Shown here: piece by piece, positions 7,801 through 63,703 of the stretch
Layout of the letters: each line of letters opens with the position of its first letter
Position numbering within the stretch: the first letter of the stretch is position 1
The notes under the pieces: model-generated
Databases searched by the model: none
The model's input: only the letters and a program-made list of their open reading frames with translations
Told to the model about the DNA's origin: nothing
Program-made: the position numbers and the translations under genes
Origin: Lepraria neglecta
Lineage: Eukaryota; Ascomycota; Lecanoromycetes; Lecanorales; Stereocaulaceae
Reading direction: 5' to 3'
Assembly: GCA_033220425.1 (NCBI GenBank)
Contig: CM065651.1
Location: 1,984,001 to 2,048,000 of the forward strand
DNA length: 64,000 nt

Positions 7801-10800
7801 TTAAGAGTCGTCGACTTTAAAGTTGTATATCCATATCTTTCCAGATCCAACACCGATGCCGATCATCTTCTCCGACACGGCCGAACACGACGGCCGATAC
7901 TCTGAGGGTAGCCATAGGAAGTTCTCTGAATTATATATTATCCACGCTCCGTCTAAACTTAAACCTTTGCTTTGATATCGAGGATTTTGAGAATCCGTTA
8001 CACTCGATATTATATTTGAAACTGATAATATATCAATAGCGATAGTACCAATTTCAGTGTGAAGATATAAGCCGGTGGTATCGACTGATATGTTTAAAAG
8101 TGCCTTGCCAATCTCGAGCGTCTGTAGGCACTCGCCACTGCTCGTATCCCAGATCTTGACCGTCCTATCGCCTGACGCCGACGCGAGCCATGTCGAGTCG
8201 TGTGAGAAGGCGACCGACCTGACCGAATCGCTATGGCCCTCGAGCGTCTGTAGGCACTCGCCACTACTCGTATCCCAGATCTTGACCGTCCTATCGACTG
8301 ACGCCGACGCGAGCCGTGTCGAGTCGTGTGAGAAGGCGACCGACCAGACCTGGTCGCTATGGCCCTCGAGCGTCTGTAGGCACTTGCCACTGCTCGTATC
8401 CCAGATCTTGACCGTCCTATCGTCTGACGCCGACGCGAGCCGTGTCGAGTCGTGTGAGAAGGTAACCGACCTGACCGGATCGCTATGGCCCTCGAGCGTC
8501 TGTAGGCACTCGCCACTGCTCGTATCCCAGATCTTGACCGTCCTATCGCCTGACGCCGACGCGAGCCGCGTCGAGTCGTGTGAGAAGGCGACCGACCAGA
8601 CCGGGCCGCTATGGCCCTCGAGCGTCTGTAGGCACTCGCCACTGCTCGTATCCCAGATCTTGACTGTCATATCGCCTGACGCCGACGCGAGCCGTATCGA
8701 GTCGTGTGAGAAGGCGACCGAGCAGACCGGATCGCTATGGCCCTCGAGCGTCTGTAGGCACTCGCCACTGCTTGTATCCCAGATCTTGACCGTCCTATCG
8801 TCTGACGCCGACGCGAGCCGTGTCGAGTCGTGTGAGAAGGTAACCGACCTGATCGAATCGCTATGGCCCTCGAGCGTCTGTAGGCACTCGCCACTGCTCG
8901 TATCCCAGATCTTGACCGTCCTATCGACTGACGCCGACGCGAGCCGTGTCGAGTCGTGTGAGAAGGCGACCGACCAGACCAGATCGCTATGGCCCTCGAG
9001 CGTCTGTAGGCACTCGCCACTGCTCGTATCCCAGATCTTGACCGTCCTATCGCCTGACGCCGACGCGAGCCGTGTCGAGTCGTGTGAGAAGGCGACCGAC
9101 CAGACCGGATCGCTATGGCCCTCGAGCGTCTGTAGGCACTCGCCACTGCTCGTATCCCAGATCTTGACCGTCCTATCGCCTGACGCCGACGCGAGCCGCG
9201 TCGAGTCGTGTGAGAAGGCGACCGACCAGACCGGGCCGCTATGGCCCTCGAGCGTCTGTAGGCAGGCACTCCATTCATCTCTTATAGCCGGCTTTATCGT
9301 GATCCACTTCGGCTCTTCCTCCTTGAAAAGACCCCTTATCAGGCTGCGGGCTGGGCTGAACACGAGTGCAGACGCATATGCCTGAAGAGGATTGTTCTCG
9401 ATAACGAATCTATTGGACAAAACAAATCGATAAGCATCCTGAACCAACCGGAGAAGTTGGAACTCGGATGAGACTCTCTGGATCAATCAGTATTCGCAGG
9501 TATTCTACCTTGTTTAAAGTAATAACTAACCTCAAGCAAACCGGTGAGCTTGCCCATTGAAAGTACCCCCTCCGACATGCTCTTGAGAAGGGAGAGAGCC
9601 TCAAGCCAGTGAAGAAAGTGCTTCTTCAGAAAGACATCGATCGTGCCGTTTTCGCAGAGCCCCACTCTGTCGTGGCCGTTTTCAATCTCGCAAAGATGGT
9701 CGATCCAGTAGACACAAGCGTATCGAATCGACGCTAGGGGATCTGGATGGGGAGCTTGAACTTTCGAGATGGGAAAACCGGGATACTCCAACTCATAGAT
9801 ATTTCTTCGCAGTTTGGCTCTCATGACTTCGAGTGACTGCGATACGATCATGTGATGTCCTTCTGCGCGTCCATAGGGGAAGATCTCGGAGAGGATCTCA
9901 GACTTTGCATGCTCAGTAAGGTAGTCTTTCGCCGACTGGTGAACAAAGTAGACAGTCTTATCATCCTCCTTAATAGTGAGGAGGCCACAAAGCCTTACGA
10001 TGTTGTGAGGAACAGCCAATTTCGGTAGCGCAACCAGTGTGACCAACTCGGACAGCTGGAGTGGGCGATAAGTATTGACCATGGTCAAAAGCACAAGCTT
10101 GCTGTGTTTGGAGGAGGCATCCTTTTGCTCAATAATTTGGCGCATCATCCGGTCGTACATTCCGTTAAGGTCTGGAGGTATCTCGCGAACGAGCTCGAGG
10201 ACCTTGTCAGCGCCACAATCGGTGTCGTCATCTATTTGCCGAAAGACAAGCGCCACCCATAGAAATGTGCCGTCGGCTTTTCGGCGAAGCTCCTCGGCGA
10301 CTTGGGCTTGGACTTGTCGAACTTCCTCAAGGGTGCTGTTCTCACAGTCCGCGTAGGTCCTCCCAAATCTTGCAGCGAGGTCCCTCATCTTATAGTCGAT
10401 ATAGAATTTGACAGCGCCAGCCACAGAGTCGGCGTTCAACTCAAGAGAAAGGCTCGTTCTTGTCTTATTTTTATCGACAATGTTTTCGATGTAAGTCTCG
10501 TTTCGACTGGTCACCAGCCACTTGACTTTGTTATTCTTTTCCGATATCTCGGAAATCAACTCCAACAGCTCTTTTAGGCCGGGCTCCTCCTTCTTGCACT
10601 CATCGAGAGCATCAACGGCGAGATATGCTCTTTCCAAGGTTTCGTCCTCGAGCATAGATAGGAGAATCTTCTTCAGATTATAGAACGCTGCGTGGGCTTC
10701 GAAAAGCGTCGATCCATGGTGCTTGAACTCGTCCAGATGGCGTATAAGCGACTTTTGCTGGCGTATGAGCATCCATATTAGTCCTCTCAAAATAGCGGTC

Positions 10801-12061
10801 GCCGTGTTGAGCCTGTCATTGGTGCCTTGACAGAAGAAGTAGGACAGATGAGACTTGTCAAATTGTGTATTCAGCTCGTCCGAAAGCTCAGTGACGATAC
10901 CAATAAGAAGCATCGTCTTTCCCTTGCCTGCGTCGCCCTTGATCCAGAGAAGTCTCTTCGTATTGCCGTGATGCCAGTCGGTGAAGTCCTTATACTCCTG
11001 GTTGTCGAGAATCCACTTGTACGAGTCCTCGAGCAATTGATCCTTCCGCTTTTGAAGTGATTCGATCTCCATGGTCATATCTGCCACATACAACTTCTGC
11101 ATGATCTCGTCCTGTGCCTTGGAAATGTGCATATCGACAAGGAGTCTGAGGTAGGAATTGGCCTGCGTGACGCCAAATTGGCGGGCGGCCTCCTTGACGT
11201 AAGTCTCGGCTTTGATCACATCGTCTAGGCTTCCGCTCCAGTCGTCAAATTTGACCAGGTTCCGGAGATACTGGAGAACAGAATTTCGGTAGTTTACACA
11301 GATGCTCTTGATGATATACTTGAGAAGTACTTTGTATAGGCCGAGGATCCGATCCGCCAAGAGCCCGCGCAGTTCTGCAAAGCGCTCGTTGTTCTGGGAT
11401 GTCTCTTCGAGAAGGAGTTTCGAGAGGCTGGAGTACCATTTCATATTTTGGACGACCTTTTTAATTCCTTCTCGATTTGTTCTCGTCTCGTCGGATGGAT
11501 TCTGAAAGACCTACGAAATGTTAGAGTAAGTAGTTGAATATGGGATGGTACAATTGCCTGTAGTAGGACGCAGATACCAGCCCACGCAAGGGCAGCTATC
11601 GGAACGGCCTGCAGACCGCTACTTATTGCTTCCTTAACGGAGAGGACGATTTTTATTGCATCGCCAAAAAAAATTTCAGCCTTAGCTAGCTTCGCTGTGT
11701 TATCCAAGCCAGCATTTAGAAGGTCCTCCATCTGGGATCGTCTCTTCATTCGGTCCGTCTGCTCAATAATATTTTTCTTGGCTCCTTTAGAGCTGCCGAG
11801 GTCATGGGAGAGGACTGTCTCGTAGAAGTCGAATAACTTAGGTTCGTCCCGCTTGAGGTCGTCGTAGGCTTGGTCCCAGAGTTGCTCGGGTTGGATGGCG
11901 GGTTCTGTCTGAGCAGAGCTTTTGGACGGAGTTGCGGGCACGGCAGGTGGTGCAACCTTGCCATCTTGTCGGTTGCTATCATCCTTCTTTGACTTCTGCT
12001 GTTTCGAGAGTCTAAAGAGGCGCGAAGCTTTCCCAAGCGGGCGAGATCTTTCTTCAGGCAT
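7801..12061 (-). CDS. NACHT-WD40 STAND receptor (NWD family, NLR-like)
   Basis: Three exons join in phase: 12061-11558, 11510-9531 and 9477-7801, giving 1386 residues and no internal stop. The first intron (47 bp) has a GC donor, the second (53 bp) is GT-AG. The N-terminal part (about 60-290, LWDQAYDDLKRDEPKL then GLQAVPIAALAWAG) matches the NWD NACHT-NTPase N-terminal domain. Walker A, GDAGKGKT, is at 360-367 and Walker B, LAVDALDE, at 465-472; the sensor-like VTSR follows. Residues 900-1277 are nine 42-residue WD40 repeats that are nearly identical, then one degenerate blade and a C-terminal tail. In fungi such proteins (HET-E/HET-D relatives) sense non-self through the WD40 propeller and signal by NTP-driven oligomerisation. 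There is no HET or Goodbye-type effector domain in front of NACHT_N, so the output domain is unclear. It is the only intact NLR in the window. Confidence 0.93.
8131..9264 (-). repeat. Nine tandem 126-bp WD40-encoding repeats
   Basis: Nine units of exactly 126 bp, each coding for a 42-residue blade of the form CLQTLEGHS...KIWDTSSGE. A tenth, degenerate unit starts at 8130. Units differ at only a few codons, clustered at blade positions 10-13, 16, 22, 23, 29, 31 and 42. The 126-bp period is a multiple of three, which produces long open antisense frames that are not genes. Confidence 0.95.
11511..11557 (-). other. GC-AG intron in the NACHT-WD40 gene
   Basis: On the minus strand the exon ends CTACAG and the intron runs from GCAATTG to TTTCGTAG, with a CTAAC branch-like site near the 3' end. 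Splicing here joins ...CVLLQ to VFQNPSDE..., which restores the conserved N-terminal domain. Keeping the intron leaves the frame open for a while but then meets a stop before the NACHT domain. Confidence 0.75.
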
Positions 12062-12773: not shown

Positions 12774-13400
12774 TCAACACGAGAGCAAGGACGCCACTTC
12801 ATCGCAATCTCCTTGGATTGCGATGTCCAAAGAAGCTCTCAAAGCAGCTGGCGGTGCGACATTGCTGATCCAGATTGTCAATCCACCTCGAGCCTTGGCT
12901 GCGCAACAGAGCTCTCTCACCAACCTCTTCGCTCCTGGCACTTGAAGAGTTGTCCCACCACAAGAACAACATCTGGACCTCTTCCTGTGTCTTGTACCGC
13001 CATAGCACCCATCATCTCTCCTCTGGGGTGCTCTTCTCCGTAGAGCACCACGTTAGGACGTAGTCTACCGATTCCGGAGGGTCTTTCTCCCTTTTTTTCT
13101 CGTTCCAAAGCCATCTCCTGGCATCTGGGGCAAGCCTCAGAGAAGTTCTCAGACGTGCGCGGCCCAGTCCACCCACAATACTGACATAAGACCTCATCGA
13201 TTCGGCCGTGGAGCTGTATAGTTCTTTCGCAAAGATGAGGGAGGCATCGCTCGATACAGTCAATATTTTGTGTGTGATGGCGAAGGAGACGGCCGTTATT
13301 GGCGATGCTGTCCATAAAGGTATGAAACGAAGGCTCAAAATGTGGACCAAAGAATGAACTATGAAAAGTGAATGCAGCTTGTCGAGTCTGAGGCCAGCCG
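12774..13400 (-). pseudogene. Sirtuin (Sir2-family NAD-dependent deacylase) fragment
   Basis: The minus strand reads GRLLRHHTQNIDCIE, QLHGRIDEVLCQYCGW and CPRC, then RLRPNVVLYGE and PDVVLVVG. These are the TQNID motif, the catalytic His in LHG, the two CxxC pairs of the zinc site, and the RPNVVLYGE and VVG blocks of sirtuins, in the usual order. After VVG the frame shifts by one base; the continuation (TTLQVPGAKRLVRELC, then LTIWISN) is in the next frame and ends at TGA 12774-12776. The N-terminal GAGxS NAD-binding segment is missing or unreadable. It resembles fungal Hst-type sirtuins. As it stands it is a truncated, frameshifted pseudogene; a sequencing error could explain the frameshift but not the missing N-terminus. 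Confidence 0.75.
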
Positions 13401-34227: not shown

Positions 34228-35049
34228 TGTAGTTACTGTCTTCTAGATATCTCCGAAGCTTATTTTGGCTCTCTCAAAAGGTCTATTTCTGGCTCCTTTT
34301 TTGGCTCAGTATTTATGGCTCTAAGTCTAGCCCCTTGGCTCCAATTCAGACCTCGAATAAGCTCAAAGATTGTATAGGCTTGATTTTGCACAAAGCTCAG
34401 AAATACTTTCCGGGGGTCGGTGTGTCGTTGATACCCTGAATCTTGTCGATCTTGTTCTCAGCCTAAAGTACAATAGCGTATGGAATAAGAGGACTTTATG
34501 TTTAGAAGGCGGACAAGGTGGCGTATCCACAATGATGGGCCGCACCCTATTGGAACCAACAGCACCCAGAATTGGCTGCAACCTACCATCCAGAATTACC
34601 GCATCCTAGGCTCACTCTGCAGCACCCATAACCGACGGCGTGTACAACTAGCCTCTTGCAACTTAGAAATATCTCAAGGACTGGTCATGCAATGCCTTAC
34701 TGCTAGGCTAACCGTACGAAACTTCTGGATAACGGTGCTGGGATCTGAGCATTGAGTAGGGCCCGTTTGCGGACTGTGTCATTATATATTTGACTGTCCC
34801 ATCGCATCGATATGACGTGGTTATTAAGACGTTCTTTACTCTATTTTTAATAAGAGAGAAGTATAAGGAGGTCACTACTAGGTAGTAAATAAAGCGATGG
34901 CTATCAATATATTCAATCGAAGTTCTATCTAGAGCCAGAAGCAGAACATATCTTTTCATCGGTTATGATGAACTAGTAATTTCTAATATCGATATCATTC
35001 GTTCTATAGGAGTCCATCCCTCAAGTCTCCGAAGCTATATTATGTGACA
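34228..35049. other. AT-rich intergenic, nothing recognised
   Basis: No ORF over about 85 codons and no family features. Probably RIP-eroded. Confidence 0.45.
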
Positions 35050-36084
35050 TTACTTGCGGATACGGTGTCGCGGCGGGTGATGACGGTGCCGAAGTCTTGG
35101 AGCTAACGGCAGCAGGAGGCGTCGTTTTATATCATTAAGTCGCCCACTATATAGTAAATTGTCTCGTTTAGGTTGCCTTGAGGGTGCTTTATATAAAGAG
35201 CCGATGCAATAGGAAACTAATTTACTCTTGAGGTTGCTTCCATTGGCTTCGTTGTCATTTGGATACGTGTAGGTAGTCCCTGCACAGGCTGCGAAAAAGG
35301 GCGGAGCGGGTCCATTGGCAATCTTCTGGGTAGGGTTCAGGCAGATAGGACCGTCGATTTGATTGTTACATAGAATACCGGGTTACTTGAATAGGTCAAT
35401 GTTGTAACCGGACACTGCGGTACCTTCGGAGGAGCACGTTATAGGCACAGAATAGCCATCCATATAGCTAATATCGATATTAGGTGGACCCGTATAGCTG
35501 CCTTTAACCTTGCTGCCGTCGGGGTTGAGATTCGGGCCCATATATATCCTTCCGGCCCATCTAGTTGGGAAAGCATACTGGGTAAAAGTATTATCAGGGA
35601 GTGTAGTAGCTGAAGGATTACCTACTGGAGACGGGCCGCCAGTATTTAAAGCAAAAGAGAGCCACAAAGGATTGCCGTACGTGTTGGTTATCGCGATTAT
35701 CATATAATCGTCTGCGCGATCCGTAGTAGCAATACTCTCGGCTTCTGGAGTACTTGTAGTCGAAGTAGCTGGGACGGAAACCGTGTTCCTGACAGTAACT
35801 ATAATAGTAGAAACGGTAGTACTCTTAGCTTCCGGAGTACTCGTGGTTGAAGTAGCCTCCAGAGCTAGAACGAAAAACAAGTGTCTGATAGTAACCGTAA
35901 TAGTAGGAACGGCAGTACTTCTAGTCTCTGAACTACTTGTGGTCGAAGTAGTCTTTAGAGCTGAGACGGAAATCGTGTTCCTAAGACTAATAGTCCCAGC
36001 AGAAACCGGTGGGCAGTCGAATGGGCTTACAGCTACCAGAGCCGCGAGTATCAAAACCGCGATCATCTGATAGGAAGTTTTCAT
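35050..36084 (-). pseudogene. Secreted thaumatin-like protein with a nonsense codon
   Basis: From ATG 36082-36084 a signal peptide (hydrophobic IAVLILAALVAVS) is followed by three imperfect Ser/Thr-rich repeats of about 30 residues (TISLRNT..., TITVTIR..., TIIVTVRNT...). The C-terminal domain reads FTQYAFPTRWAGRIYMGPNL, VKGSYTGPPNIDISYMDGYS, VPITCSS and YNIDLFK, the thaumatin-like pattern (WAGRI, DxSxxDGY(S/N)VP). TAA at 35383-35385 stops it at 233 codons, but the same frame goes on with GPICLNPTQKIANGPAPPFF, AACAGTTYTYPNDNEAN, also thaumatin-like, to TAA 35050-35052. CAA to TAA explains the stop. One Cys usual before NIDLF is Tyr, again a G-to-A-type change. Family members are secreted glucan-binding or glucanase proteins; this copy would be truncated. 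Confidence 0.8.
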
Positions 36085-37886
36085 TCTGGTTCAAATTATC
36101 CAGAGAGTAACTTATCTTAGAAAAATCTGGGGCTTCCGTTCTCCTTTATAGTTTATAACGGATGTCACTTTTTAGGTTGCTTATAAGAGCATCCGTATAG
36201 GGAGTGTCGTGATATCATTCTTTCTTGGTTTAGAACGGGACCTCGGAATTAGCCTTAGGATATGAGCACCATCTTTCGCCTCGCCGAGCTGCGCTATTAT
36301 TGGCCGCTGCCAGCCAGAAAAGGCACTCAGCAACATCCAATTATAAACACTACTAGATGGTACTATATCTTTGACCTGGCATTAGAAACCAAATTTCATA
36401 TTCAGAAATTGAAAACCTGTTGGCACTTTGTCTGTCCAGCCCATATTCTGGTCATTATACCCGCAAGAGTCTATAACGATGTCTAGATCATAGACTCATT
36501 CGCTCTTTTACTGTTTCAGTCCCATACACACATATAAGCTATTTGAATCATATTGTAGAGGCTGGACGCTTACCAATAACTTCAGGCTGCTTATCCTTTT
36601 GGTGTCCATGCATCCTCTACGGCAAAATCCAAGAGCGCAGAGCAGGGAACCCAGATCCCTCCATATATAATGGCAGTGTAAAACCCCCTCCCTGAAATCT
36701 ACACTCATTTGAGCTGTATCCTCCCTAATTCTTTCCCATCTAGTGCGCCAGTTATTATACTCTTATTTGCTGCACTCGCCGCAGCATACGCCACCAATAT
36801 GGTATCGATGGTAACGCATGCACTGATTGCCTTGCCTCCTAGTACTATACTTGCTATATATTAGTACAGGAGGCGAAGGAGGTGAAGGAGCGCTCCCCGG
36901 GTAACAAACAGGGGTATACCAGTCAGCCGAAAATGAACTATGCGCCTTAGTAGAATGTACAGGGGTGCTTTTGCCTGGAGTATTAGTAGCGGCGATCTTA
37001 AGGAAGCGCGACCGAGCTTGGCCTTCTTTTATCTGCACTTTTCGTGAAGTTATAATACAACCATAGATGTAAGTAGTTATTAAGCTTAAAGGAATGTCGG
37101 TAAATATCGACATATGATACTCATAAGGGGAGACTTTATCTTTAAATCGAAGCCCTTTGAGGAGTCTTTGACTTATCACCGAAGATTCTGGCCAATGGGC
37201 CGGTGTCTCGGATGTATTCTATGAATTGCGCAATGGTTCGGTTTCAGGGGCAGAGCCTTTTGGCTTCCAGTCGCAGTTTTTGCAGCAACAAAGCTCAACA
37301 CCCAATTAATACAACTGTTTAAAACTTCACATTACGTAGAAATTTTATGATCATCCTGAATCATAACCTCAAGTACTTTTTATTTAATTTGGTGTGTGTG
37401 TGTGTGATTGATGTTCGTTGATTTTGCCAAGTCTGCGAGCCCTTGCTTCCGCCATTCATGGGATAGCTCTCAGTCATACGTTACCTAGTACTTACGAAAA
37501 GGAGGTAGAGATTCCTGCAAGTCATCTTGTGCGTTAGCGATAGGAAATCGATTCAAGGGGTGATGAAATTTGGACGTTTTATGAGACTTATTGAGTTGAT
37601 CGATTATCTAAGAAGCTCAGTGCATGCAAGTGTTTTAGTTATGCCTGAGACGGCTGACTAAGCTAATTTCCAAGGGCTGGAAGAATGACCTATAGTACCA
37701 GCTTCGTATTCAAAAAGGGTTAGATTTGACGCGAGACTATTCAACTTGCCACTCTGCGCACGCTTGAGACGGCCTCTCGTCCAGACGTTGCATTTTGCCA
37801 TAAATGACTCTTACCATTTTTGAGTCCCGCCGAGCCACTAATATAACACTTTGTGCGTGAACGCTAAAAGGTTCAACCACTTTGAC
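36085..37886. other. AT-rich gene-poor stretch
   Basis: A minus-strand ORF at 36763-37179 (138 codons) has a Cys-rich end (CMRYHRYHIGGVCCGEC) but no known family. A (GT)n microsatellite sits at 37392-37406. The frame of the DUF3723-like gene ends at TAA 37887; the GGTAAGT there could also be a splice donor, so a further exon may lie in this stretch. Confidence 0.35.
37392..37406. repeat. (GT)7 microsatellite
   Basis: Fifteen bases of alternating G and T, seen directly. Short and of no clear meaning. Confidence 0.9.
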
Positions 37887-39905
37887 TTACCTCGTCTTCT
37901 GTCCTTGTCTATGTCCTTCCACGTTTTCAAAATGAAAATTATCTAAATAATAAAGATCCTTCTCTAGTCGGGGAAGCCTTTCTTTTATCTCATTGTACAT
38001 TATACTATAAAATCGAAACCTATCCTCGGATACCTCTTCCAGTATCAGCAGCGTGGTCGAGTCTTGCTAATAGTCAAGGAGCATCTAGACTGCTTCGTCG
38101 CGCGTGATGATCGAGTCTAGCTGATGGTTAAGGAGCATCTGATCTACTTGGTCGCGTATAATGATCTCGTCCTCTTCGAATAACAATCGATCTATAGGCC
38201 TCGATAAACTAAAATAATCTATTTCGTTAAAGTAATGTTGAGTCTCTACAAGCGGAAGTTCTAGAGATAGAGGGCTTAAGCGATTCCTTAAAGGCCTATT
38301 AGAAGCCGGGGGGAGCGCTAAGGGAGGTACTTATAATTATAAAGGATCTCCGTCATAAGACTAAAGGGTATTAACCATTAGTAAAGGTCGAGGCTTAGGC
38401 AAATTCCGAGACCTTAGGTTACTAGGACTCTCAGGCGCGCCAAAGAAGCTATAGAATATATCCCTCTTTACAGTAAAAGATCGGATATATTCTTAATAAT
38501 TTTGAGGGACTCGATCAATCTGTACTAAGAACAGTACCGGTTAGTCTTCTCTGAACGGGGTATAGAAGGGTACACCGCAGCGGAACGCGATATCCGGCCC
38601 GCAATTAACGCCAACCTCGTCTTCCAGGTATTCTAGTTCCTCTATTTCCTAATCTTGCCTACGAAGGGTCTTAAGGAGACCAACTATCTGTTAAAGTTCG
38701 TTTTACATACTTCCCGTATAAAGCTAGTATAGCCACACTTACTATAGGAACGCCTTAACCATCTTGTAGTCCGCTTCGTCGTTATTAGTATAGGTTCGGT
38801 CAATACCAGTATAGCCACAATCTAATACCAATTATATAAATCCATACCACCAGATGAGTTCTATAGCTGGTCTAGGTGGTTTCGGTTGTCCTGGGTCTTT
38901 CCGTAAAGGTTGACCCGTTATCTCTAGGAAATGCCGTATGCCATATAACCATTATTGGCGATAGGCATTACGATAGGCATCATCGCTCAATACCTCTGTC
39001 TATAGTATAAAGGTCGTTTCTGCCGTCTAAAGCGACCATGATTTCTTCTTATTATATATCTATTCAAACTCCTGCAAGATAGTAGTCTTACAAGCGCTCG
39101 GGAGTAGCGTCTTTATAATCCTAGCGCAGGGCTTAAGCAGCTTTATATCTTTAAGAAAGGTGTGAATAGAAGGTATAATATAGTCGATCTCAGCGATCCC
39201 AGTCCATATAGACTATCGGGGTCTATCCAGGCAGGAGAAGATATCTTTCCACTGCGACCGAATCAAGTCCCTATCTCCCCTATACTTCGGGTACCGACCC
39301 TGCAGTACATCCACAGTCTTTACGTCTAATATCTTTCGCAAACGTTTACGCCCCCTTATAATTCTATCCCAAGCTTCTCTAATCCTGGTTATATATCTCG
39401 TCATTTCCTCGGAAGTATATTTAGTACGTTGCTGGCGGCTAGGAGGTCCTCGCACTTACCTCGGGGTATCGTATTACTAGAATTCGATAGAGTATTCCGG
39501 CAAGAAAAGCGGGCTACAGGCCGGGAAATAGGAGTAACTTATTAAAGGCTGTAAGAAGATGGTATATCTAGGGATCTTTTTCTGCCCTCGTCTCTAACGA
39601 ATAAACGTCCCGTCTCTTAGTGGTCGACAATTTCGATAGCTATCTTTTCTTAGCTACTATATTGTCCGCTAAAGCAGCGCACCGAGAATATTAATAGATC
39701 TCCCCATCGTAGAAATTACTCGAATTAGAATATTCCTTACAGAGCTCGTCGACCTCAGCTTCGCCCAGAACTATAATATATTAGCTGAGCGTAGCCGTCT
39801 AGGACGGAACACTCACCGTCCGCATAGAGATCCACAGTCCACTACTTATCGTCCGGATGGAGGAACTTCTTCGCCGCTTCAATACGGTGTCTACCGCAAA
39901 AGTAT
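37887..39905 (-). pseudogene. DUF3723-like gene, RIP-damaged and 5'-truncated
   Basis: Read down the minus strand from 39905, the sequence gives GRHRIEAAKKFLHPDDK, stop, WTVDLYADGE; then DRIIRGRKRLRKILDV with VDVLQGRYPKY; then IDYIIPSIHTFLKDIKLLKP with CARIIKTLLP; then AYRQ, stop, WLYGIRHFLEITG and LRKDPGQPKPPRP; then IEELEYLEDEVGVNCGPDIA with FRCGVPFYTPF. This is the block order I know for fungal DUF3723 proteins. The part from about 38700 to 37887 is a single frame with nine stops (five TAA, four TAG, no TGA), so every one can come from CAA or CAG. The region between 39455 and 39850 is more decayed. The gene starts abruptly at 39905, beside unrelated sequence. No known enzymatic role; the family often travels with Starship giant transposons. 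Confidence 0.68.
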
Positions 39906-40323
39906 ATTAAGCTCCGGCTTGGCCTCACCAACTCTGGCTCGCTGCTTGGTGTGATTCCCCCTACAACCTGACAGTCTAACAGAGCCCCAATCATTGCCAT
40001 TGAAGCTTAACTTGCAGTTACGAATTGTCTCAAATGATGCACTTCTACAATTTTGTATGCAAATATTTCTCATAACAACCCATCGTGGCGCTGTTATTGC
40101 ATGGTAAAGTTCCCCAGCGCATGTCTTTATAGGCGGGCTAGCACGGGCAAATTGGCCGGCGGTTATTTTCCACCGCCGCGAGCGGATCAACTGGTGGATG
40201 GATGACTCCTTGTCAAGGTATTGAAACCTAAGCTCTAGAGTCTAAGGTAGACAGTCTGCGGAAAAAGGACGTACAAGTATGTGGCATGCCCCTGCTAGTT
40301 GCCTCACGTCGTAAAGCAAACCA
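39906..40323. other. Intergenic between DUF3723-like and NLR relics
   Basis: A 99-codon minus ORF at 39891-40190 crosses the truncation point and has no family features. The change from AT-rich, stop-rich sequence to average composition occurs near 39905. Confidence 0.4.
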
Positions 40324-48916: not shown

Positions 48917-51252
48917 TCAACCACGCACCCTCCCTCCGAACTCGACGCGATATAGGTGTCGGAACATAACGTGCTTCAGCTCCTGCAGCTCCGACTCACC
49001 AAGCACATCCTTCATGATAGTATCGAACGTCATCTCCACACCATTGCGTAGCCAGAGCTCTTGTAGTTGCTCATCTGACAAGAATCCGTACACAGTATTT
49101 GTATCGATTGCGTGGCGAGGAGGGCAGGGCTGAGTAGCAAGAATCCGTACGGCTCCTTCAATAGCTTTGATGCCTGGTAATGAGTGTCAGTGTATGCAAC
49201 TTTTGACTATGATTTGGATATATACCGCAATCACGTATACTCCCTAGATAGTCACATCCCAATGTTAGCAAGTGTCGACTTAAATCGACATAGATTCCTG
49301 ACCTGGGTTGTCGAAAACCATCTCAATTTCCTCCATCACATGATGTCCATCTTCTTCAAGCGATCTGAAATTCCGTACGAGACCAACGTCGGGGTGCCAA
49401 GTAGTGAAGGTCTCTAGATCAGCGACTTTATAGATCATGCGGGATAGATGGTTCGGTTTGAAGACATTGTATGCTGTGAATATCAGCCTGCTCAGAGTTA
49501 TCGAGGAAATACCGAATCGCTTACCGTTAGCAAATGCGTCTTCTACTCCCTCGGGACTACTCGTTTGTCCAGGCAGAAGCTGCCTTGTTTTGGGGTTCCG
49601 CTTGGAGAGGTCCCTAAGCTGTTTGACAAATAGCCACACGCGTCTCGGAGGCAGTGAGGAAATCAACTCTACTCGGTTCTGGCGCATTACGTCCCTGCTA
49701 TCTTTGCTTTGCATGCGCGTCATGGAGTCGCTCTTGATAACTAGCTGGACAAGGCAATTCGCCTGGTCTAAATCGTAAATTAAAGTAGAAGCAGTTCCGC
49801 CTTGTAGAAATTAGCATTGTGCAGTGATATAGAGATGAGTCTCTTACCAAGTTTCCCATAGACGTCTGTCTGCACTGTTCCTAACGCTGACCCAAGTGAG
49901 GCTCTTCCGGGATCGATCAGTGTGAATTTGGTGACGACTGTGGTCCCAAGCTCTTTGGCAATCCTCTCTAAAAGCTGAAGATATGGAGCGGCCTTGTCTT
50001 CACTCCATTTCCCCCATACGTCATTTTCGAATACGTTAGTAGGTGGAGCACGGTACATCTGCTTGATTCTCAGACTGTCGTCTAGTAGATAGAATTCCAG
50101 AGCCCGACTCAGACTAGCCGGCGATTTGTAGACGATAGCTATTGTGCCAAGGGCCTCTTCCAGGAAGATTGCGTTGATCTTCTGCACGTGTAAATTTTTG
50201 ATAGGGAAAAAACGGAAGTAAAAGAAGTGTTTGTCTCTGGACATTTTAGTATGAAGCAGCTCGATTTTGCCGTTCACCACCTTGGTGTAGTTATTCCGAG
50301 CTTTGGCAACAGGCAGATCCTCCAAACAAGATCCAGACATCTCAGGAACCTCATGCATCGATTTTGTCGCTTCCAAGAGCATTTTTCGATTTGTTTCATC
50401 CTCTTCGAACCCACTGGGCAGGAGGAAGCTTCGTGTTACGAGCATCAATTTAGGTGATACTGGCGCGAAAATATGATAGTCCGTCCAAGCTCTAGCGCTG
50501 TTAGGCCCTTCGAAGATACTGTACGCATTCTGAGTCAATATGAACTCATCAGCATCCTCTTCAGGTGTGCAAAAGGCAAGGAATGACATCTGCACGTTGT
50601 TGAAGAACCATTGTGCATCATGGGGGAAAGCCCGTTGTTCAATCTGCTTTTTCCAGACTTGTGGCTCAGTGCTCAGGTCAACGTCCAAGAAGGCTCGGAT
50701 GTTCGCAAACCAGACGTCCCTTGGCCTTTTAAATCCTTTCTCGTTCATGTAGGCTAACATGAACTCTCTATCGTTGGAGTCATAATCCTCGGCCGACTTT
50801 TCGTACCGGCCTGCTTGAGTTCTGTTGCGGTAGAGCATAATGAAGAGAAACCTGCGCACGAGGTCTTTTTCCTTGCGGGAGAGCTGAACCTCGTCCTTTC
50901 CAGCATCATGCATACGCTTCGCTTTCCGGAAGATCTCGCTAGTATCACTCTCAAGACGAGACAGCCTTTTCTCCAAATCGTATTGATTAGGTTCAGACAC
51001 GTCGAAGTCACGGTACATGTCCACGAAGCCGAAAGTATGGCCAACATCTGCTTGTTCAAGCTTGCCTGTCTCTAGGTTCAAGAGATTGAGCCTATTGGGT
51101 ACTGGAGGGCTTTTCTTCTTGCTGCTGGAAGTCTTTGGTGTGATCTTGCCGGGATGTTTGAAAACAGCGAAGTTCCTGAGAAGGAAGCGTGGGATGAAAT
51201 GATGGTACTGAGGGCGTGCTGATGAACTAGAATTATTGCTTCGTTCCGCCAT
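48917..51252 (-). CDS. DUF4238 family protein, five exons
   Basis: Exons 51252-49848, 49800-49525, 49473-49303, 49243-49226 and 49173-48917 join in phase to 2127 bp, 708 residues, with GT-AG introns of 47, 51, 59 and 52 bp. The fourth exon is only 18 bp. I start at MAERSNNSSSS; a Met 40 codons upstream is in frame but unlike the family. QYHHFIPRFLLRNFA at 15-29 is the hallmark of DUF4238, followed by a long alpha-helical region (LEKRLSRLESDTSEIFRK) and a WFANIRAFLDVDL segment, and NVQMSFLAFCTPEEDADEFI, LTQNAYSIFEG, which match its second half. The C-terminal exons add VWLFVKQLRDLSKRNP and a tail ending FGGRVRG. DUF4238 has a presumed nuclease-like or defence-related role in bacteria; in fungi its function is unknown. 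No lesions seen. Confidence 0.85.
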
Positions 51253-52130
51253 TGTTGTCACGCAAAGCTGCAAGTGAGGTCCTGCGTTTGAAGTCGGAAG
51301 AGCGCTCAAGGTAATGATGTTGGCATCGAAGGTATAGGAATCAATGTTAGGCTGAAGAGGGATGGAGCGCAAGTAAGGGAACTTGAGGAGGGGACCATAT
51401 AATCCTTCAAACGCTGGTGGCGCTCAGCGCCTGGGTCGAGCTGTGATTGGCTGAATTATGTCGGCCTGCTGCAGAGGATTTGCGGGAGAATACGAGCCAG
51501 ATTTTACATCTTATTGGTTGAGACAGGGTCAAGCCCGGCACAGCTACCGCCGTAAGGCAGCAATCCTGCAAGATCCCATTCATGATTGTTGCAATCCGTT
51601 GCTTGATTGCTTTCTATGCGATTCCAGAAGCCTGTTGCTAGCCGTTCTTTATCTGTTTTGGCCATATATGGGGCCCTGGGGGCCCCCATTAGCTAGATAT
51701 CCTTCCCAGCCTATTGCCACATTGCAACAATGATGAATATACTTACTCAAGCCACTAGCAATAGCTTAGTGAGAATAAGTGGTACCATGTTAAATTAGCG
51801 AATTACACCTTACACATACAGTAGAAATAAAGTCGTCGCGGTTTCGTCTTGGTGCTATCAAGCAAGCGAGGAGAAAGTGCCACCCAGGTTGCCGTACTCT
51901 TGGTGAATGAAGAATTGATTCCTCCCTAGAAAAGCACCTCAAATCGAGCTTCCCGATTACCAGCTAAATTTGGCCAACCGAACATCATGCTGTTTTAATC
52001 AAATCTTTTGAAATTCTCTTACTGATGGCTGTTAGTACCGCGCATAAGCCAACCTAGACAGAATCTGGCGTTAAGCCACCGAAAAGAGAAACCATAATGA
52101 AAAAAGGCGTGGCACATGCTGCCTCAGCCG
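51253..52130. other. Intergenic, nothing recognised
   Basis: Holds the DUF4238 promoter and the 3' flank of the hydrolase-ankyrin gene. A palindromic GGGGCCCTGGGGGCCCC-like word occurs at about 51670. Confidence 0.45.
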
Positions 52131-55791: not shown

Positions 55792-58700
55792 ATGGATGCC
55801 ATTTTGCGTAATGAAAGCGCTTAGACTCCTAGAAGACCTTACGAATGAGGAGCAGGCAATGTTCGACAAAGTCTCGATTGAAGCTGTTTTATACGATGCC
55901 AGTGCAGCAGAAAAGAAGCACGGTGTCTGTTCAAAAAGTCGCGCGCTTTCAAAAAAGTTCGAACCCCTCGTCTCCGCCATCGATCAGTACGGCGAGGCAA
56001 TTGATGTCTACGCCAATGCTTACCCTCTTGCTTTGAGTCCCCTTTGGGCCAGTATTCGGATTGTTCTACATGTAAGCAGCTCCATTACATGACCACAATC
56101 TGTCAGCTTATGAATATTAGTTAGACAACTTGGACGCGAAAATGGAAAGTATGTCGACAAGCTGGTGGACATGTTTGTTAGTATTGGAGACGTGCTCCCA
56201 CGATTCAAGATTTACGAGAAATTATTTTCAAACCATGAAATCCTCATTCAAGCACATTCGAAAGTCTACATTGACATCATTGAGTTCTGCGCGGACGCCA
56301 AGAAAGTGTTCCGAGTTGGAAAGAGTGCTCCTGCTTAGACACCTGACCTCTTAGGCTTTTTCATGGGATCTTCTCCATCGGACTGCATCCGAATGGGCTT
56401 TCAATTTTCTGCATCGGTACATCGGGATATTGCTAGTTCTACATCTTACCACTGTCACATTGGGGTCAGCGTCAATGATGTACACTGTCCTAGATTTCGT
56501 TCATTGATGGCGTCACGCTTTCTTTCCATGGAAGTCTTCATTGACAGAGAGGGAAAGAGCAGACTGTTGACAAGCATTGTCGACATGCGGTGTTTTTCCT
56601 TAACATTCAGGGATTATACGTTGGTCATGAGCTAATTTGCATAGGTCTTAGGGTCGCTTTTATAAGCGGACTTGGAAACCCTTCGAGCGACAATTCGGTC
56701 GGCAACTGGAACATTCCCGCCAACACCGAAAGAATGTCGAGAAAGAAGCTGTGTTAGCGCATATGATGGAAGCGGCTGATTCGAGGGCTCTGGTGCTTGC
56801 TAATCAGATGCAAGTGGAGAAAGTCCGACAACGTTTGTGGTCACACTACTGTCACTCCGAAACGAGCAGCTAACACATACAGTCGACGAGCGCCGGCAGC
56901 TGCTGAAAGGTCTGTCTACAGTAGACTACACAGCTAAACATCATAAAATCCAAAATGCTCGTTATGAAGGGACAGGTGACTGGGTATTCGAAAGTGAGGC
57001 GCACTTGGCATGGGAGAAGTCAGAAGCCTCGGTATGCTTGTGCTGTACCGGGATACGTACGTAACCCCCCAACCTGACCGCGTTAAAAAAAAAGATGTGC
57101 TCACATAGGCCCTCGAAAAAACAGCTGGTTCTGGAAAGACGGTTCTGGCGTACGTATTCTATCTGTCTCATGCACACTAAATGCTCACAGAGTGTGCAGG
57201 TCACGCATCGTAGACCGCTGACTTGCAGCGCACGACCATACGAAGATGCCCACTATATACTACTACTGTGAATACGCCGACGTAAGGACCCTTCATACTG
57301 AACACAATTTTGAAGCTGTCCTGAAACAGCTCCTCCTATAAGCTCTCGTTCCGGAAGATGTTGAGTGCCAGCTTCAACAGTCATTCGTTGGTGAAGTGCG
57401 CACAGCAGGGACTAAACAGCTACAGGAGAATATATGCTCAGCAATTGCAGCTTGTTTACGGATCTGTATCATTGTGGATGACCTCGACGAGTGTAAGAAA
57501 GCAGCCAGACGAGATGTTATTGCCCTCCTGGAATATCTACTTACACTTGAAATAACTATTATCAAGGTCCTCGTCTCTTCCAGAGAGGATGATCAGAGCT
57601 TGACAAGTCTTGACGCATACCCTCGCATTCAACTATCCGAGTCGATGCTTGCTGCAGACATCGAAGCGATCATCACGGAAAGCGTTGGGTCCAAGATCCA
57701 CGATCGTGAATTGAAGGTTAATGACCCAACGCTTGAGCACGAAATTGTTTCAGAGCTTGTCACAAAGGCACATGGGATGTCAGTGCCCCGCACTCTTATC
57801 TTCTTTAGGCTCCCATAGTCGATCTCTCCTGGAATTGTTGGGGACTCGCGCCTTGCACTGTGTCTTCACCCTAGGATTTCTTGCTAACATATCGCAGGTT
57901 TCTTTGGGTCTTCTTCCAACTAGAAGAACTCTGCGACGCTCCCTCGGATACAAGTGTTCGCGAAATACTTCGGGAATTCCCCAAAGGGGTGGCGGCGACC
58001 TATGGTCGAATACTAGGGAGACTCGGTAAAGCAAAGAACAAAATACCGTCGAAAGTGTTCAAATGGGTCGCGTGAGCCCAGCGACCACTGCAATTAGGCG
58101 AGCTGCAAGAGGCTATTAGCCTTGAAGTCACCGACAAGTCCTGTCATGACGCCGCAGAAACTGACGGCGACCGGCTCATTCGATCTTCTGGAGCTCTAGT
58201 ACGTATGGATGCGGAGGACGGGACGGTGCGTTTTGCACATCATACTGTGCTACAATATCTGCTTTCAGATCCCAAGGACGTTACCCTTCCTGATTTTCAT
58301 TTCAGCCTTGCTCAAACCAATCGTTGCGCTGGAGAGCTGTGTGTAGCATACCTCTGTTTCTCCGATTTTGAAACAAGCGTAGCACGCAAGGTATTACCCA
58401 GCAAGATTCAAGACGCTGCTCCATTCCAGGCAGGTGGGCTCTCAGTCATACCAACTGTCCTTGGCATCGGCAAATATCTCTACCATATTCCATATAGGCT
58501 ATACGGGACCCAGCGGATGAAAGAGTCTATAAGACTCAGCTACCCAACCATTCAGCCAAGGGTCATGGACCCGCTCGCCCCAGCACTGACGGATAAGTAT
58601 CGGTTACTTGAATATGCGGTAGAACACTGGGATTACCACACGAAATGGCTAGGGTCTTCCATTGGCAATGGGTCAGTCTGGAACCTTTTCATCAATTTAG

Positions 58701-59775
58701 TGATATCTAAAAGCCTCCCACGGAAGTGGGGCTCTAACGAGCATTACGGAATCTGGGGTTGCAGCTCTTGTCCTGAAAAGCCGCAGACTGCGGCCAAAGA
58801 CCTCCCTTTCATGCCATTGGTTCATTACGCAGCATCACTCGGCCATCTACCTATGCTGCTGCTTTTACGCCCTGGCATGGGTATTAGCCAGAATCTAAGC
58901 GCGTATTGTGGGCACGAGCCCAACCTCCGGACGTTTTTCATCGGCACTAGTAGCACTGGGAATGACTGCCTCAAGCACGTTCTTTGTTATACACTTGATA
59001 GTTTCTCTCATCTTGAAGTCCTAGAACACGCTCTTACTTCGGGGCATGTAGACGTCGTGCGGATCATCTTCAAGGATTACGATCAGCCATGCTTTGACAA
59101 AAAATGCCCATGTGCCATGTTCCATCCTAAGGTCTTACTTTAGCCTGCGGTCTGCCATTCGAAACAGGCAAGCTACCGTGGTAGGAACTCTACTTGAGGC
59201 GGGGTTCCTTTCGACTTGGAGCATGATCCGAAGAACAGAAAAGCATTTGGAGTGACGTTTCGGGACAGTCACAATACTGTAATTGCTATGGTCATAAGAA
59301 AGTGCAGGTTGCTTCCCACCGATGATCCAAAGTGGGATGGCACGCATCCGCTCCATTTTGCCACCTTGAGGGTAATACCCTGATCCTGCAAGCTCTCTTA
59401 GAAGCTGGAGGGCCGGTCGATCGCCGTAATGATCAAGGACACACTGCCTTACACGAAGCGGCAGTGGTAGGGCATAGCAACGTTATTCGAGTCTTGTTGG
59501 GTCATAATGCCGACATCGAAGCAGTCGGCGGCTGTGGAGGGGTACGTTGACGCCTTACGGACGTTCTGCCAAGGGGTGCGAGCATCAAGGCAAATCCCAG
59601 CACTCCCGAGCGGACTGTACTCCATTTTGCAGCACAAAATGGGCGCGTTGCCATAATTCGGGATCTTTTCAACTTGGGAGCCAACATTGAAGCCACTAAG
59701 AGATATGGAAGAACGCCATTAGATATCGCCATCATGTGGGCGAAAAAGATGCACAAGCAGTTCTACGAGAGCTAG
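55792..59775 (+). pseudogene. DUF7708-NACHT-ankyrin STAND receptor relic
   Basis: The start is ATG 55792 (MDAILRNESA, then a frame change). The N-terminal domain reads LVSAIDQYGEAIDVYANAYP, SPLWASIRIVL, then QLGRENGKYVDKLVDMFVSI and IDIIEFCADAKKVF, the DUF7708 layout. Next come HHKIQNARYEGTGDWVF and AGSGKTVLA (Walker A, 57124-57150), then CIIVDDLDEC (Walker B) and IKVLVSSRED. FLWVFFQLEELC and FKWVA, stop, AQRPLQLGELQEAI follow, as in NACHT proteins. The long frame 58205-59143 leads to ankyrin repeats (TALHEAAVVGHSNVIRVLLG, TVLHFAAQNGRVAIIRDLF). Stops (TAG about 56336, TAA about 57339, TGA about 58074) and frame changes break it; some gaps may be introns. The domain order is that of fungal NLRs. 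Confidence 0.8.
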
Positions 59776-62472: not shown

Positions 62473-63703
62473 CTAGTGCTTAATGTAAGGAAGTGTGGCT
62501 TGGCAATATCTGGATTTGAATTTTTCGGGATAGGGCGGAGCTAGTACAACACCTATGAGGTTGATCCAGCTTTCGCAGTTAGCGCCCTTCCAATCCGAAC
62601 CAACTGCACGGTCCGCCTTAGTCACAGCAGTGGCCAATCGGTCTCCTATCTTCCTCGCCTTCCATCTGGCCACCTCAGTCACAGCAGTGGCCAATCGGTC
62701 TCCTATCTTCCTCGCCTTCCATCTGGCCACCTCAGTCACAGCAGTGGCCAATCGGTCTCCTATCTTCCTCGCCTTCCATCTGGCCACCTCAACATCCAAT
62801 GCCTCCGCCTCCTCCCTTAACTTCGCCGCTTTTCCTTCCAGTCTCTCCATTTCGTATACAATAGTCACTTCTCGCGCTAGTGGCCGGCAGTCAGAGTGTC
62901 TGGCGTAGACAACATTGCAAGCATCCGTGACAGGACCCTCCGTGCTGACACCGAGAGCCGGCTCTAGAGCCGTCCTTATTTGATTGTGGATATCTGCAGC
63001 GGGTCCCCGTGAACTGAGAAAGTAGCTGTCAACGTACTCTGGCATCTTTGCACAGGATATTGGGGGCAATATATCGAGTTCAGCCAAGTTCATTGCCTTC
63101 AGAGCACGTAGACCACGTTTCTTTATCCACCACTGTTGGTCCATGTAGCATGATTGGACCTCAACGACCAGAGCTCTGAAACCCCTCAGCTCTTTGAAAC
63201 TCTGGAAAAGCGACGTTGATAAGAGCCTGGGTTGGCAGTTTAGCTGGTCGCGTTGATCAGCACCAAGGGTTGTGTGGAATTTGATGCGACAACTATTTCG
63301 GAGGACAGCATTGCCTTCGAATTGGGCGACGAGTGCACTGAGTTGTGTCTTTGTGGCCGGGTCTTGGGGTGTCAGGGTAGCGCACGTGAAGAAACCCAAC
63401 TCCAGATGCTGATGGCGAATTCGATAATTCTCATCTTGTTTGCCGTCTTTTGGTCAAGTATGGGTGTGCGATGCTCATTGCGAAAGTCCAAATTGAAACG
63501 GAAAACGCCTTAGCTATATAGTGCCTCGATCACCTCTTCGCTGATGGCTTGGGTGGGCGTAGTATAGCTAGACTCGTGACCGCTTTTGGCTTACGATTCC
63601 GGGAAGTGGCGACGTATGTTTTGCTCAACAGATGGTTGTAGATCGTGTCTCGGAGCTCGCGTGGGAACATATTGAGCGTGCCCAATGAGGTGGGATGGGC
63701 CAT
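62473..63703 (-). pseudogene. LPxELRxxIY-family copy with tandem-repeat C-terminus
   Basis: From the Met at 63703 the frame gives SLGTLNMFPRELRDTIYNHL, then drifts; other frames give TQAISEEVIEALYS, stop, GVFRFNLDFRNEHRTP (the KEAxxxxxxxGVxR block) and RIIEFAISIW. The frame from 63399 to 62473 then carries RIKFHTTLG, ELRGFRALVVEVQ and ALEPALGVSTEG, which match the family, and a C-terminal extension with a coiled-coil-like MERLEGKAAKLREEAEALDV followed by three identical 19-residue units (EVARWKARKIGDRLATAVT). No other copy here has such a tail. At least one TAG and two frame changes break the N-terminal half. Confidence 0.65.
62621..62791 (-). repeat. Three perfect tandem 57-bp repeats
   Basis: Copies at 62621-62677, 62678-62734 and 62735-62791 are identical base for base. 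They encode the 19-residue unit EVARWKARKIGDRLATAVT three times (the last followed by KADRAV). Confidence 0.97.

Follow-up and report, generated by a model that had tools for sequence, protein, structure and literature searches.

Tandem, near-identical WD40 units behind a NACHT ATPase are best compared with those of the HNWD genes of Podospora anserina. There, codons 7, 9, 25 and 27 of the repeat are under positive selection, around the constrained codons 8 and 26 (PMC1805685), and at least ten repeats are needed for incompatibility (PMC2873952). In fungal NOD-like receptors (NLRs), 21.6% of the annotated WD repeats are highly conserved internally (Dyrka et al. 2014, PMC4986451); Goodbye domains are said to be very seldom paired with repeats of such high internal conservation (HIC) (PMC4986451). 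The domain NACHT_N has been termed a Goodbye-like profile (PMC9815663). The locus presented here belongs to Lepraria neglecta (assembly GCA_033220425.1; 42.0 Mb, 11 contigs). It lies in a stretch of 64,000 nucleotides, called the window, which covers positions 1,984,001 to 2,048,000 of contig CM065651.1. Very probably, a gene on the minus strand of this window encodes a fungal NLR of the order NACHT_N, NACHT, WD40, with a diversifying WD40 sensor. Its parts are the following:

7801..12061, minus strand: NLR gene, 1388 aa, exons 11552-12061, 9531-11510 and 7801-9477 (spliced reading and Pfam)
11511..11551, minus strand: putative intron 1, 41 bp, GT-AG, phase 0
9478..9530, minus strand: putative intron 2, 53 bp, GT-AG, phase 0
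11193..11887, minus strand: NACHT_N (PF17100), aa 59-276, E 2e-56, 218 of 220 profile positions, split by intron 1
10503..11024, minus strand: NACHT / NPHP3_N ATPase core, aa 333-506 (profile matches and motifs in the translation)
8131..9264, minus strand: nine tandem 126-bp WD40 units, from unit 1 (9139-9264) to unit 9 (8131-8256)
7804..8130, minus strand: diverged C-terminal part with possibly three cryptic blades, judged by eye

The gene runs from an ATG at 12061 to a stop codon ending at 7801. It forms a single open frame of 1388 aa once both putative introns, whose splice sites are deduced from the sequence, are taken out. In its middle, Pfam finds NPHP3_N at aa 333-506 (E 3.4e-33) and NACHT at aa 356-511 (E 9.4e-11), both over the cut-off; towards the C-terminus it finds nine WD40 stretches. 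Within the ATPase core we take GDAGKGKT to be the Walker A motif and AYLAVDALDEC to be a Walker B-like motif. HET is not among the nine Pfam families listed up to E 1 for the protein; NACHT_N is there instead and is the putative effector or signalling domain. The first-pass annotation had called the gene an intact NACHT-WD40 receptor, and the open frame and complete domain order bear this out, given the predicted introns. It had also called it the only intact one of five loci of the type of signal transduction ATPases with numerous domains (STAND). This stands for the two NPHP3_N matches found in the window among the 150 scored of 197 candidates for that profile, i.e., the receptor itself and one match with two stops; the other three loci were not looked for. 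On the opposite strand, a 436-aa open reading frame (8075-9385) was considered as a gene and rejected, as it lies antisense to the WD40 array. Its openness presumably follows from the 126-bp period, which is divisible by three and so makes one stop-free unit recur.

The array is highly regular. Tandem Repeats Finder reports it at 8113-9264 with a period of 126, 9.1 copies, 94% matches and a score of 2087. All nine full units are 126 bp long; their mean identity is 95% in DNA and 91% in protein (0.907 over 378 aa), which puts the array within HIC repeats, whose definition asks that repeats be over 85% identical across 100 aa or more. No DNA difference separates units 1 and 6. With the unit numbered from the C of CLQTLEGHS, amino acids vary at positions 10, 11, 12, 13, 16, 22, 23, 29, 31 and 42 of 42, which are exactly the ten codon positions named beforehand. 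The most variable ones are 29, 13 and 11, each of which differs in 4 of the 9 units.

These positions are not scattered at random. Aligned via the conserved V and D, the selected Podospora codons 7, 9, 25 and 27 become positions 11, 13, 29 and 31, and the seven positions used in PMC12222747 become 9, 10, 11, 13, 29, 31 and 38. All four of the former, the strongest in Podospora, vary in the window array (p 0.002), as do 5 of the latter 7, which have high dN/dS (ratio of nonsynonymous to synonymous change) in Podospora (hypergeometric p 0.005). A rank test gives p 1.9e-4. The hypergeometric and rank tests thus uphold the claim that the variation is clustered, and they reject chance clustering. 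In WD40 propellers, the residues called R1-2, R1 and D-1 are partner contacts on the top face (PMC3419727), and highly repetitive WD40 proteins vary at such top-face hotspots (PMC5587647). By our own mapping, positions 11, 13 and 29 are assigned to R1-2, R1 and D-1, respectively. With every triple given the same probability, precisely these three would come out on top by chance once in 11480 cases.

The same residues recur elsewhere in the genome. Two units used as queries gave at least 152 matches; twelve arrays were read from loci already retrieved plus three small extra stretches. Ten of them, with 128 units in total, have no stops in the units: the window array (9 units), C3 (12), C6b (10), C6c (20), C5 (5), C1a (22), C1b (7), C1c (12), C4 (23) and C2 (8). 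"Stop-free" here describes the units only, since the NOD matches preceding C1b and C5 contain stops. Two further arrays (7 and 4 units) are damaged. Unit number thus ranges from 5 to 23; amino acid identity is at least 0.85 in 6 of the 10 arrays and lower in C6c, C5, C1b and C4. Averaged over the ten arrays, variability is highest at the five positions 29, 11, 10, 13 and 31, with or without the window array and with or without the edge filter described below. There are exceptions: C1c does not vary at 31, nor do the seven retained C2 units at 29. The leading positions agree even between arrays that are only 53% alike in DNA.

Selection was estimated mainly on 110 of the 128 units of the ten arrays; units were dropped if two or more of their first six, or of their last six, positions departed from the consensus of their own array. 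The two damaged arrays were left out of these counts and also of the unfiltered set of 125 units. At the five sites the 110 units show 100 distinct nonsynonymous and 6 synonymous changes; all other sites together have 79 and 66 (Fisher p 2.6e-13). After weighting by mutation opportunity, the five sites have an omega of 3.7 (kappa 1) or 5.4 (kappa 8.5), and the others one of 0.44 or 0.58. The unfiltered units behave alike: 114 and 6 changes against 129 and 81 (Fisher p 6.3e-13), with an omega of 3.5 or 5.1 against 0.59 or 0.79. Omitting C2, which is 92% like C1a, changes the pooled result little. With the four sites preset by the 2007 paper, the nine other arrays yield an omega of 3.6-5.4 (p 2e-13 or less), and outside these sites it is 0.37-0.74.

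For the window array alone, omega at the five sites is 4.0 (p 0.008, kappa 1) or 5.9 (p 0.0009, kappa 8.5). At the preset sites it ranges from 2.8 to 6.8: 4.6 (p 0.005, kappa 1) or 6.8 (p 0.0006, kappa 8.5) for the four of 2007, and 2.8 (p 0.041) or 4.1 (p 0.007) for the seven of 2025. Diversifying selection at the top-face positions is thus seen here too, on evidence that is weaker than in the pool but concordant with it. The peak of dN/dS expected at the listed sites is seen in the pooled arrays; in the window array p runs from 0.0006 to 0.07, depending on the test.

Several points weigh against the reading as a receptor with a diversifying sensor. In the window array pairwise pN/pS (proportions of nonsynonymous and synonymous differences) is only 1.07 at the seven 2025 positions, against 0.40 elsewhere, and the Fisher contrast for this array alone gives p 0.07; it also exceeds 0.05 in C1b, C4 and C2 individually. 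Position 10 joined the five-site set post hoc, whereas the 2007 and 2025 sets, which were run too, are fixed by the papers. Because it discards change near the ends of the blade, the edge filter could bias the counts towards this reading; it removed none of the 9 window units, but left only 3 units of C5 and only 2 of C1b. All these p-values are optimistic, and the counts indicative, because units recombine and the distinct variants of one array do not represent independent events. Over the ten arrays, the highest transition rates are those of C>T before A (26 of 101 sites, 0.257) and G>A after T (16 of 67, 0.239), other contexts giving 0.083-0.21, so that mutation of the type of repeat-induced point mutation (RIP) may supply part of the variation. 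Nine conserved repeats are below the Podospora requirement. Finally, a single-sequence AlphaFold2 model (mean pLDDT 63.6) is no guide to how the blades close or how many of them make up a propeller.

The units evolve in concert, and mostly at home. In a tree of 125 units, from which three C4 units with an insert were omitted, the units of the window array group together in a separate clade (9 of 9, support 0.98). So do those of C3, C6b, C6c, C5, C1b, C1c and C4 (support 0.85-0.996), whereas C1a and C2, alone among the ten, are intermingled. Inside the window array DNA identity averages 0.95, versus 0.77 to the nearest other locus. Since the units are monophyletic and near-identical within the locus, homogenisation appears to proceed mainly inside it, unlike the family-wide exchange in Podospora. 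Within the window array, units 1-4 resemble units 6-9 (identity at offset 5 of 0.972, permutation p 0.035), which, together with the identity of units 1 and 6, is as expected from exchange or duplication of multi-unit blocks. Eight arrays were submitted to this test of unit order, with p-values uncorrected for their number. Besides the window array, C2 (offset 4, p 0.009), C4 (offset 1, p 0.023) and C1a (offset 1, 0 of 2000 permutations) gave a signal, while C3, C6b, C6c and C1c gave none. Concerted evolution combined with diversification, as the first-pass annotation had proposed, is hence supported by the separate clade and by hypervariable positions shared with Podospora and with the nine other arrays.

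A NACHT_N match precedes 3 of the 10 stop-free arrays. The paralogues at C6:2069661-2073525 (10 units) and C3:1522027-1526065 (12 units) have NACHT_N, NOD and WD40 array in the same order as the receptor and a similar C-terminal part; the receptor shares the part at 7804-8130 with three paralogues at 39-50% amino acid identity. However, they differ from the receptor in their own repeat sequence and in the N-terminal region, where identity over the longer matches is 36-47%. At this distance from the two closest full-length paralogues, a recent whole-gene duplication was rejected as the source of the likeness between the window array and the others.

At C4:1776988-1780299, three of the 23 WD40 units carry in-frame low-complexity inserts (DEASASDDASASDD) inside the blade. 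At C2:3893464-3894471, eight WD40 units match the C1a array, which lies on another contig, at 92-93% identity along some 1 kb, and about 0.5 kb of flank on either side is without match to C1a or C4. The C2 units sit in an open frame of 1297 aa, with no NACHT in the stretch read; by eye, the downstream part of this frame resembles a zinc finger, part of a dehydrogenase and a cytochrome b5 domain. The C2 block thus seems to have moved between loci, into an unrelated gene. With at least ten diversifying arrays genome-wide (128 units found), 8 of 10 homogenised per locus and nearly the same five residues varying, joined to NACHT_N here and with one block apparently moved elsewhere, we tentatively suggest that the array might be a portable recognition module independent of the effector; this is perhaps somewhat less probable than its opposite.

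How the receptor may work can be sketched as follows. The propeller or propellers would be the sensor of a protein ligand, each blade offering about five adjustable residues (10, 11, 13, 29 and 31). Unequal exchange within the array would homogenise the frame and reshuffle the blades, while diversifying selection would maintain variety at the contact residues. A bound ligand would release the NACHT ATPase for oligomerisation, and the oligomerised NACHT would drive NACHT_N, a Goodbye-like, four-helix domain, towards cell death or another defence.

The ligand would be either a conspecific protein, as in allorecognition, or a foreign one. An immune receptor for proteins of bacteria, viruses or other fungi, with diversification tracking the microbes, has a somewhat less than even chance of being correct: the NOD repertoire is large (at least 150 NPHP3_N matches above the cut-off, exon pieces and damaged copies included) and diversifying arrays are many, yet the same anatomy serves allorecognition in Podospora. 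A role in allorecognition is plausible. The narrower proposal is a heterokaryon-incompatibility gene, whose alleles would react to a polymorphic conspecific protein as HET-E and HET-D react to HET-C. It fits the array anatomy and the hypervariable positions, which match those of the HNWD genes, but is rather doubtful in view of an N-terminal NACHT_N instead of HET and of nine repeats where Podospora needs at least ten (PMC2873952). Moreover, near-identical arrays are so common in fungal NLRs (the 21.6% of PMC4986451) that the array alone is no pointer to a het role.

Could the gene be a relic, non-functional or partly decayed? Its nine conserved and about three cryptic blades would add up to 12, not 14; in Podospora an active allele usually has 11 conserved blades and three cryptic ones, which have been modelled as two propellers of seven blades each (PMC12222747), and the commonest inactivation there is repeat loss (PMC2873952). 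Such a relic would have kept its frame open but lack a complete propeller. We nevertheless consider decay unlikely: the 1388-aa frame is open and the NACHT motifs are present, the unit number varies widely among the arrays of this genome, a second propeller of a different size is possible, and omega outside the sensor positions of the window array is below 1 (0.32-0.43), although alone this is not significant (p 0.053-0.13). The variation might finally be a mere by-product of RIP or of recent duplication, without selection. RIP has probably acted in this genome, as is deduced from the array at C6:1523248-1524129, which was probably damaged by it: stops occur in every one of its seven units, 97 of 130 differences from the C1b consensus are C>T or G>A, 60 of these in CpA/TpG context, and its RIP indices are 1.38 and 0.58. 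The elevated CpA and TpG rates mentioned above point the same way. Of the 12 distinct C>T/G>A changes in the window array, however, just 2 fall at CpA or TpG. Among nonsynonymous base changes, transversions prevail at the hypervariable sites (76 of 137), in contrast to 18 of 92 elsewhere, where transitions do; and the same positions lead in arrays of low DNA likeness. The transversion excess and the 2 of 12 changes reject RIP alone as the source, a contribution being possible, and an origin without selection is highly improbable.

The remainder of the window offers some side observations. A SIR2 family fragment (12917-13315, minus strand, E 5.5e-11) precedes the receptor gene on the same strand, at a distance of less than 1 kb. 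The NOD (NPHP3_N) match with two stops is found at 57201-57584 on the plus strand; downstream of it, an open frame at 58205-59143 (plus strand) has a sub-threshold ankyrin match, and the two are probably the remnant of another NLR. A DUF4238 protein is encoded at 49780-51372 on the minus strand (530-aa open frame, E 6e-53), and a 57-bp tandem repeat (62616-62791, 3.1 copies, 99%) lies inside an open frame. The part at 35001-40000 is of low GC, and 3 of its 5 1-kb blocks have RIP-like dinucleotide indices (composite 0.66, 0.64 and 0.49). The composition profile showed nothing specific.

In comparison with known systems, the receptor as a gene of diversifying sensor type is close to het-e, het-d and het-r. 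Like these, it combines a NACHT ATPase with tandem 42-aa WD40 units of high internal identity, and its hypervariable positions 11, 13, 29 and 31 are the codons 7, 9, 25 and 27 of PMC1805685. The differences are the effector (HET there, NACHT_N here), the number of repeats (usually 11 in active HNWD alleles, nine here) and the exchange of units between loci in Podospora (PMC1805685), whereas the units of the receptor form their own clade. Judged by its sequence, with nine repeats and without a HET match, it falls outside the HNWD genes strictly defined. The best sequence match to the array in the PDB is 2YMU (E 5.1e-190), a highly repetitive WD40 protein, which shares the near-identical blades; it is, however, a WD40 protein of 577 aa, and its record names no NACHT. 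With the other HIC WD40 NLRs of fungi (PMC4986451) the receptor shares the architecture and a repeat identity above 85%. The pairing with Goodbye is said to be very rare there, whereas in this genome NACHT_N stands before three arrays. An open frame, a complete domain order, near-identical units and amino acid change focused on the predicted top-face contacts make it a well-preserved example, beyond the HNWD genes with their HET domain, of blades that diversify at largely the same five residues. Since ten arrays agree in these positions, the variable contact code of fungal WD40 sensors might be readable in a general way. The receptor is a further example of the already known HIC WD40 NLRs, with a less common effector pairing.

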